Source: Candidatus Fermentibacterales bacterium
GTDB lineage: Bacteria; Fermentibacterota; Fermentibacteria; Fermentibacterales; JAFGKQ01
Direction of reading: 5' to 3'
Assembly (NCBI GenBank): GCA_016928495.1
Contig: JAFGKQ010000194.1
Location: forward strand, 1-5,269
DNA: 5,269 nt
The notes under the pieces were generated by a model. That model made no database searches and was not told the origin of the DNA. It was given only the letters and a program-made list of their open reading frames with translations. Within the stretch, counting starts at the first letter, position 1; every line of letters begins with the position of its first letter. Of the stretch, positions 3,899 to 5,269 are shown one piece after another. The translations under genes and the position numbers were made by a program.

Positions 3899-4453
3899 AT
3901 GAAGACAGTCGAGATGAGAACACCGCTCAGGACCGACCTTCTGAAAGAGCTCGAGGCCGGCGACAAGCTGCTCCTGTCAGGCGAGGTCTACACGGCCAGG
4001 GATGCGGCCCATAAGAGGCTGGTCGCTCTGATTCAGGAAGGCAAGGAGCTACCCTTCGAGCTGGAGGGCTCGGTGATCTACTACGTCGGCCCGGCCCCGG
4101 CCCGCCCGGGACAGGTCATGAACTCGGCCGGCCCTACCACCAGCTACAGGATGGACCCCTATACCCCGATCCTCATGGAGAACGGCATGAAGGCCTGCAT
4201 AGGCAAGGGCCCCCGCTCGCAGGAGGTTCGCGATGCCATGGTCGAGCACGGGGCCGTCTACCTCGCTGCCATCGGGGGAGCTGCCGCCGGCATCGCGTCC
4301 GCGGTGAAGGCCGCTGAGATCGTGGCTTACGAGGACCTGGGCCCGGAGGCCATCAGGAGGCTCACGGTAGAGCGCATGCCTCTGTTCGTGGTCAACGACA
4401 CTGCCGGCAACGACGCCTACGAATCCGGCGTCGCTCGTTGGGGACGTAGTTGA
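3899..4453 (+). CDS. fumB: Class I fumarate hydratase, beta (C-terminal) subunit
   Basis: Partner of the preceding alpha subunit; in single-chain class I fumarases this part is the C-terminal domain. It has 184 residues, the usual size of the separate chain. Recognisable segments are LSGEVYTARDAAHKRL (26-41), YYVGPAPA (61-68), GPTTSYRMDPYTP (78-90), which contributes substrate-binding Thr, Ser, Arg and Asp residues, IGKGP (101-105) and AAIGGAAA (123-130). ATG at 3899 has GGAGG (3887-3891) seven bases upstream. The protein normally ends soon after the D-x-x-G-N-D-x-Y segment (here 167-174). This one runs on for ten residues, of which the last three (GRS) and the TGA stop are encoded by the left arm of the repeat at 4441-4517, so the original C-terminus may have been replaced. 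The core is intact. Tartrate dehydratase beta (TtdB) is the alternative. Confidence 0.92.
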   Translation: MKTVEMRTPLRTDLLKELEAGDKLLLSGEVYTARDAAHKRLVALIQEGKELPFELEGSVIYYVGPAPARPGQVMNSAGPTTSYRMDPYTPILMENGMKACIGKGPRSQEVRDAMVEHGAVYLAAIGGAAAGIASAVKAAEIVAYEDLGPEAIRRLTVERMPLFVVNDTAGNDAYESGVARWGRS

Positions 4454-4517
4454 ACTAATTCAACTTACTCCCCATCCGCCTGTCAGTGAGTTAGTTGAAT
4501 TAGTTCAACTACGTCCC
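4441..4517. repeat. REP-doublet (REPIN/BIME-like) inverted repeat
   Basis: Two 30-base arms (4441-4470 and 4488-4517) are reverse complements with one mismatch (4466 against 4492), including 25 outer pairs without error; the loop is 17 bases (4471-4487). Each arm begins GGGAC and then has the tetranucleotide GTAG (4446-4449, and 4509-4512 on the other strand). That is followed by its own hairpin TTGAA-N4-TTCAA (4450-4463 and 4495-4508). A GTAG at the foot of a small palindrome, in two inverted copies, is the known layout of REP elements moved by RAYT/TnpA-REP Y1 transposases. The arms are clearly AT-richer than the neighbouring genes. No T-tract follows, so it is not a standard terminator, although the transcript would form a strong hairpin between fumB and larA. 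A pair of repressor operators is the alternative. Copies elsewhere in the genome cannot be checked here. Confidence 0.75.
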
Positions 4518-4536: not shown

Positions 4537-4543
4537 GGAGGTG
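4537..4543 (+). promoter_or_regulatory. Shine-Dalgarno-like GGAGGTG before larA
   Basis: GGAGGTG is identical to the site serving sucD. It overlaps the GTG triplet (4541-4543) that would otherwise be the first start codon, and lies six bases before an in-frame ACG (4550-4552). The spacing therefore fits a start at 4550 better than at 4541. Confidence 0.45.
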
Positions 4544-5269
4544 TACGCAACGAGACTGCGGGTGCCATACGGACCGGACGGGAGCATCCCGCTGGATGTG
4601 CCGGAGGGTGGCCTTGTCCTCTACCCCAACGAGGTCCCCGTCTCCGACTGGAAGAGGGTCATACGCGATGCCCTCGAGGCTGCCTCGGGTCCGAGCAGCC
4701 TCACGGAGTTCCTGCGGGAACGCAAGAGCCTGCTCGTCGTGGTGAACGACGCTGCCCGACCGACGCCCACCGCGAAGGTCCTCTCGCTCATCCGTTCTGA
4801 TCTGAAGGGTGTTCCCCACAGGCTCATCGTCGCCACCGGTGCCCACCGGAGCCCGACCGAGGAAGAGCTCGAGACCATTCTCGGCGATCTCCATACTGCG
4901 GAGCGCGGGAACCTGATCATCCATGACGCACGCAACCCCGATGAGATGGTCCGCACGGGGACGACTTCCCGAGGCACGGAGGTCCTCCTCAACAGGGCCG
5001 TCCTGGAGGCGGACGGGATCCTCGTGATCGGCTCCGTGGAGCCGCACTACTTCGCCGGCTATACCGGTGGGCGCAAGGCCTTCGTGCCCGGTTTGGCTGC
5101 CTACTCCACCATCGAGCGGAACCACAGCCACGCCATGAGCCCCGACTCCCTTCCCCTGGCCCTCGAGGGCAACCCGGTCCACGATGACATGATGGACGCC
5201 CTGACCACCATCGGCGAGAAGCCTGTCTTTGCCATCATGACGGTGCTGACGGGCAGGGGTGATATCTAC
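4541..5269 (+). CDS. larA: LarA-type nickel-dependent 2-hydroxyacid racemase/epimerase homologue, N-terminal part
   Basis: Partial gene cut by the right edge; 243 codons are visible of a family of about 420 residues. LarA enzymes use the nickel-pincer nucleotide cofactor to racemise or epimerise 2-hydroxyacids through hydride transfer. Visible motifs are NDAARPTP (69-76), ATGAHR (98-103), HDARNP (128-133), EPHYFAGYTGGRK (167-179) and ERNH (192-195). H102, H169, K179 and H195 correspond to Lactiplantibacillus LarA H108, H174, K184 (which carries the cofactor) and H200, with spacings of 67, 10 and 16 against 66, 10 and 16. The nickel ligand and catalytic histidines are therefore kept. The substrate (lactate, malate, other) is not predictable. 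The start is uncertain: GTG 4541 is the first usual start codon, but the ribosome site overlaps it. ACG 4550 or GTG 4562 are alternatives, and the frame is open back to 4499 inside the repeat. No larB, larC or larE is in view. Confidence 0.88.
   Translation, partial: MYATRLRVPYGPDGSIPLDVPEGGLVLYPNEVPVSDWKRVIRDALEAASGPSSLTEFLRERKSLLVVVNDAARPTPTAKVLSLIRSDLKGVPHRLIVATGAHRSPTEEELETILGDLHTAERGNLIIHDARNPDEMVRTGTTSRGTEVLLNRAVLEADGILVIGSVEPHYFAGYTGGRKAFVPGLAAYSTIERNHSHAMSPDSLPLALEGNPVHDDMMDALTTIGEKPVFAIMTVLTGRGDIY

Follow-up and report, generated by a model that had tools for sequence, protein, structure and literature searches.

A short inverted pair of terminal repeats at the end of a fumarase gene, probably a miniature element of a TIRYT-type transposase family

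The fumarase beta gene of a Candidatus Fermentibacterales genome ends inside a compact inverted repeat that is probably a miniature non-autonomous mobile element in which a terminal repeat is present twice in inverted orientation; the long form of this repeat flanks a TIRYT-type Y1/HUH transposase elsewhere in the genome. The repeat belongs to a family of about 30 copies that matches the ends of this RAYT-like transposase gene, and it is this match that makes a tiny non-autonomous mobile element the most likely interpretation. Our best description of the element is a short dimer of terminal inverted repeats (TIRs), a REPIN-like MITE, of the TIRYT family, situated at the 3′ end of the fumarase beta gene. 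The window is the whole 5,269-nucleotide stretch that was analysed, contig C288 of the genome searched (2.3 Mb in 337 contigs, 81% complete).

An inverted repeat with GTAG-bearing arms

The inverted repeat consists of two 30-nt arms at positions 4441-4470 and 4488-4517 that are 97% complementary and lie 17 nt apart, separated by the spacer CCCATCCGCCTGTCAGT (4471-4487). A fourth G is present at 4440 on the left side, so the element may begin at 4440; the left arm on the forward strand can thus be written as GGGGACGTAGTTGAACTAATTCAACTTACTC (4440-4470), and the right arm, on the reverse strand, has the reverse complement GGGACGTAGTTGAACTAATTCAACTAACTC. Both arms are identified by the inverted-repeat search, by their genome matches and by folding. 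Under the same rule there is no comparable inverted repeat longer than 11 bp elsewhere in the window, and in eight Markov-resampled windows the longest is 11-12 bp, placing the 30-nt arms far beyond chance expectation. The whole element folds stably both as DNA (-29.7 kcal/mol, z -11 relative to shuffled sequences) and as RNA (-46.5 kcal/mol, z -9.6).

Within each arm GTAG is followed by AGTTGAA-CTAA-TTCAACT; in the left arm GTAG occupies positions 4446-4449 on the forward strand and the AGTTGAA/TTCAACT hairpin 4448-4465. Each arm on its own forms a hairpin of 7-8 bp (z -4.4 and -5.5), and the element is 55% A+T compared with 36% for the window. The preliminary description had reported two 30-base arms with a single mismatch, a GTAG and a mini-hairpin in each, four AGTTGAA heptamers in alternating orientation and an AT-rich core, and its account of the structure is correct in all of these respects.

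Copies and forms of the repeat in the genome

The 14-nt tip of the arm, GGGACGTAGTTNAA, has 29 exact matches in the genome (none for the reversed control) and 36 when one mismatch is allowed (two for the control), although these counts derive from pattern searches and the apparent conservation of the tip is therefore biased; among 59 other genomes, three contain one match each. A genome search with the 25-nt arm GGGACGTAGTTNAACTNATTCNACT, as the preliminary description had proposed, yields 14 matches at up to three mismatches and none for the reversed control, and the arm is thus multi-copy and present also in inverted pairs. The copies are mostly extragenic at gene 3′ ends. Fragmentation of the assembly raises the question as to whether the palindrome arose by chance or is an assembly product such as a foldback artefact, but there is a one-base difference between the arms, the spacer lacks palindromic symmetry, the flanks run into separate genes, and recurrence of the arm elsewhere with independent flanks refutes this explanation, to which we assign a negligible probability.

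The repeat occurs in two forms. The long form, GGGGACGTAGTTAAAGAAACTTAAGAAACTTGNCNNTTTA, is seen in many copies, and its ends bound six transposase-free elements of 147-206 bp (two on contig C28 and one each on C125, C133, C138 and C316) whose interiors look unrelated; the C316 interior, searched alone, has no second copy in the genome. Four of the six (on C28, C125, C138 and C316) are 147-149 bp long in spite of their unrelated-looking interiors. A longer arrangement is found at C49:1649-3018, where a stretch of 1370 bp with no transposase lies between two long-form ends that share a private substitution, AAAGTTAAG. It contains a 219-aa open reading frame, possibly a passenger gene, whose product resembles an outer-membrane barrel by eye and has no significant Pfam match.

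The window carries the short form, GGGGACGTAGTTGAACTAATTCAACTTACT, which aligns with the long form without gaps and lacks its inner end, including an inner TTTA segment retained in most of the family. It is present at about nine other loci, several of them single arms, and at the end of contig C55 (4855-5087) short-form arms are organized in a tandem 71-bp array. GTAG is present in all of the arms found, though the search pattern itself demanded nearly all of it. GTAG stands at the foot of a hairpin in the window arms, whereas no significant hairpin is formed by the arm flanking the transposase or by several others; the GTAG-plus-hairpin arm of the window is a sub-variant of the repeat that flanks the transposase. 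The short form agrees with the long form around the transposase on contig C225 at no more than 22 of the first 30 positions, so the transposase that belongs to it may be a different one, missing from the 81%-complete assembly.

A second repeat family, GGGGACACGCACTATTT, is found at 30 places and is about as abundant as the first, with inverted pairs on C281, C309 and C331 and a 73-bp tandem series on C16. There are also hybrid elements with one GGGGACGTAG-family and one GGGGACACGCACTATTT-family end in convergent orientation (C145:1048-1168, C255:3103-3185, C321:3969-4089, C234:4777-4971 and C240:3380-3814); by a rough hand estimate, the five hybrid pairs within 500 bp greatly exceed the number expected at random placement, about 0.1.

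The site at the end of the fumarase gene

The element lies between two genes on the forward strand, one for the beta subunit of a class I fumarate hydratase (3899-4453; Pfam PF05683, E 2.5e-57) and the other for a LarA-like (Lar_N) racemase (4541-5269, cut by the contig end; PF09861, E 1e-47). The fumarase C-terminus reads GVAEYRREE* in relatives and GVARWGRS* here, with about the last three residues (GRS) and the TGA stop encoded by the element; because the repeat reads in frame to this TGA, the gene still ends properly. The fumarase genes of order-level relatives end without the element, and their intergenic DNA is too diverged to define the insertion site. The element containing the C225 transposase likewise supplies the end of its upstream gene (GDVVKET*), and when a simple open-reading-frame rule is applied, convergent genes flank eight of the two-ended elements and the stop codon of an adjacent gene falls within several repeats. 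GTAG REPs that supply stop codons, and placement downstream of genes, have been reported previously (PMC3733652). We infer that insertions at gene ends are tolerated, and the window element illustrates how a metabolic gene can terminate within a repeat of this sort with no evident damage.

The position of a very stable predicted RNA hairpin (-46.5 kcal/mol) between co-directional genes is what would be expected of an operator pair or an RNA element – an attenuator, a terminator or an mRNA 3′ stabiliser – selected within a fum-lar operon, and stabilisation of mRNA or attenuation of transcription by REPs has been reported (PMC3733652). However, the same arm is present at many unrelated loci, the fumarase genes of relatives lack it, and neither a T-tract terminator (terminator scan) nor an Rfam match was found, so that we consider this origin very unlikely. 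A secondary role following insertion is possible, as is an effect on the mRNA.

A transposase flanked by the long form

A search of the genome with PF01797 gives two matches. The first, C225:1130-2206, is above cut-off and encodes a 359-aa Y1/HUH transposase located between perfect 32-nt inverted copies of the long form, the whole element being 1261 bp; the second, on C90, is flanked by a different repeat, GGGGACACATCACTTATCTC, and its mirror. A Y1 HUH gene flanked by the same arms, which the preliminary description had suggested looking for, is thus present with a longer form of the arm, and neither a unique arm nor a genome devoid of RAYT genes – the findings named there as refuting a RAYT-driven REP family – is what we observe. 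A locus on C237 where family-A and family-B ends are 1276 bp apart was considered as a second transposase copy and rejected, since the interval holds an unrelated long open reading frame.

The HxH (H74, H76) and Y---NP (Y133, N137, P138) motifs of the C225 protein are invariant in 22 homologous sequences, and the protein matches the NCBIfam REP_Tyr_transpos family (E 2e-14), though below the family cut-off. A phmmer search with this protein alone finds no match in the PDB, but a profile of the 22 homologues matches E. coli TnpA-REP (4ER8) weakly in its N-terminal part (E 0.014) and DnaA in its C-terminal part (E 2.4e-5); Bac_DnaA_C matches among the homologues are weak, and the C225 protein's own Pfam matches in this region are not significant. 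An AlphaFold model (mean pLDDT 80) places helices at residues 296-344, and the predicted fold has 4ER8 as its best PDB match, followed by IS200/IS605 enzymes. Defence-system models give no match for this transposase.

RAYT-like genes with flanking TIRs in place of GTAG REPs have been named TIRYTs (PMC3733652), and most of them are placed in TnpA-REP subclass 2.1, or RAYT group 1. The members of this group are long, bear a DnaA_C or HTH extension and other motifs at the GTAG-contacting positions, and no REPs were identified with them (PMC6006769). The C225 transposase together with its repeats fits this group.

On this basis a pathway for the window copy can be proposed. The C225 transposase, or a relative that is lost or unassembled, would bind the GGGGACG-tipped repeats as single strands, and would cut and rejoin them such that repeat pairs spread to new sites, surviving insertions being mostly those at gene 3′ ends. 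The window copy would have inserted into the final codons of the fumarase beta gene, adding a stable predicted hairpin to the fum-lar intergenic transcript. We infer movement of this copy, presumably by the C225 enzyme or a relative and through a single-strand mechanism, from the class of the enzyme; the fumarase genes compared come from relatives of the same order.

Sister lineages and the status of GTAG

Inverted repeats flank 25 of 29 homologous transposase loci, compared with none of 580 resampled controls, and most of them start with GGG[AT]CG. At 20 readable loci, not all of them independent, the tetranucleotide after GGG[AT]C is GTAG in six, GTAC in seven and something else in seven. 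In six sister-family genomes a local form of the repeat, GGGGACGTACCACACTTCTTCAACTT, is present in 8-18 copies, flanks the local transposase and also makes short inverted pairs; it was not found in the window's genome. One sister-family genome (C51:94786-94934) has three head-to-tail copies of its local TIR 34 bp apart, followed by an inverted one.

These data bear on whether the element is a canonical GTAG REPIN, whose REP hairpins carry GTAG at their base as the tetranucleotide that guides an E. coli- or Pseudomonas-type RAYT. The window arms certainly have this appearance, being an inverted pair in which GTAG sits right at the base of a perfect 7-bp hairpin in a genome that contains RAYT-like genes, and the stop codon given to the adjoining gene is as described for GTAG REPs (PMC3733652). 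The repeat that flanks the transposase is nonetheless unfolded (z +0.33), the short-form copies on C87 and C205 fold poorly, and GTAC, GTTG, GCAC, GGAC and others replace GTAG at homologous loci. In a profile alignment read by eye, TnpA-REP residues W94, E100, H101 and R104 line up with F, S, I and D, and Q95 is retained; E100, H101 and R104 contact GTAG, and the DnaA-like tail points to subclass 2.1, in which REPs were not found (PMC6006769). We therefore regard a canonical REPIN as improbable. Of the RAYT-driven REP family proposed in the preliminary description, the RAYT-type transposase flanked by related arms is borne out but the canonical GTAG REP is not, as the lineage is one of TIRs with a DnaA-like-tailed enzyme, without a hairpin at C225, and shares GGG[AT]CG rather than GTAG. 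We prefer to see this GTAG as one part of GGGGACGTAG, the form that the TIR tip takes in this lineage, and not as proof of a canonical REP, though it may act as a guide in the window arm.

A rather unlikely variant of the TIR-dimer interpretation is that, within one genome, the TIRs of a TIRYT are evolving into a family of GTAG-hairpin REPs, as suggested by the long repeats around the transposase that have no hairpin and the short form that has GTAG at the foot of a perfect hairpin and forms a compact REPIN in the window. If true, this would be a living intermediate in the origin of REPs from transposon ends, and such cases make testable the idea, expressed in PMC3733652, that TIR families may shed light on REP formation. 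Altering GTAG moves the site of cleavage in some TnpA-REP systems (PMC8266576), and the GTAG/GTAC difference between sister lineages is thus worth testing. We found no published assay of target recognition by subclass 2.1 enzymes, and two sister lineages, each with a transposase and its own repeat variant, provide a natural set for such tests.

Relation to known systems

The left and right ends of IS200/IS605-like elements are dissimilar. The window element resembles the MITEs of these elements in having two transposon ends without a gene, but the ends here are perfect inverted repeats and the interiors of different copies look unrelated. With the REPINs or BIMEs of RAYT groups 2 and 3 (Bertels and Rainey 2011, PMC3116915) it shares an inverted GTAG pair, a possible long hairpin, and non-autonomy with a RAYT gene elsewhere; it differs in that a hairpin is not present in every copy, GTAG is not invariant across the system, the transposase belongs to a different group, the repeat units are rich in A+T, and the copies number in the tens rather than hundreds.

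The TIRtron/TIRYT families (Di Nocera et al. 2013, PMC3733652) are similar in their RAYT-type Y1 transposase, their long TIRs tipped with a run of Gs, and the moderate abundance of TIR singles, dimers and clusters; the HxH and Y---NP motifs, the DnaA_C-like extension and the G-run tip of the TIRs are all present here. The host lineage of the window was not seen in the available part of that survey. The tip is GGGGACGT rather than the published GGGGWSAS, a sequence common to many but not all published TIRs, and one to which the second family of repeats in the genome, GGGGACAC, conforms; the window sub-variant differs further in having GTAG at the foot of its hairpin. The element is therefore best classed as a short TIR dimer belonging to a TIRYT family, a further example of a kind already known, and it documents a TIRYT-linked family of miniature elements in a poorly studied bacterial lineage.
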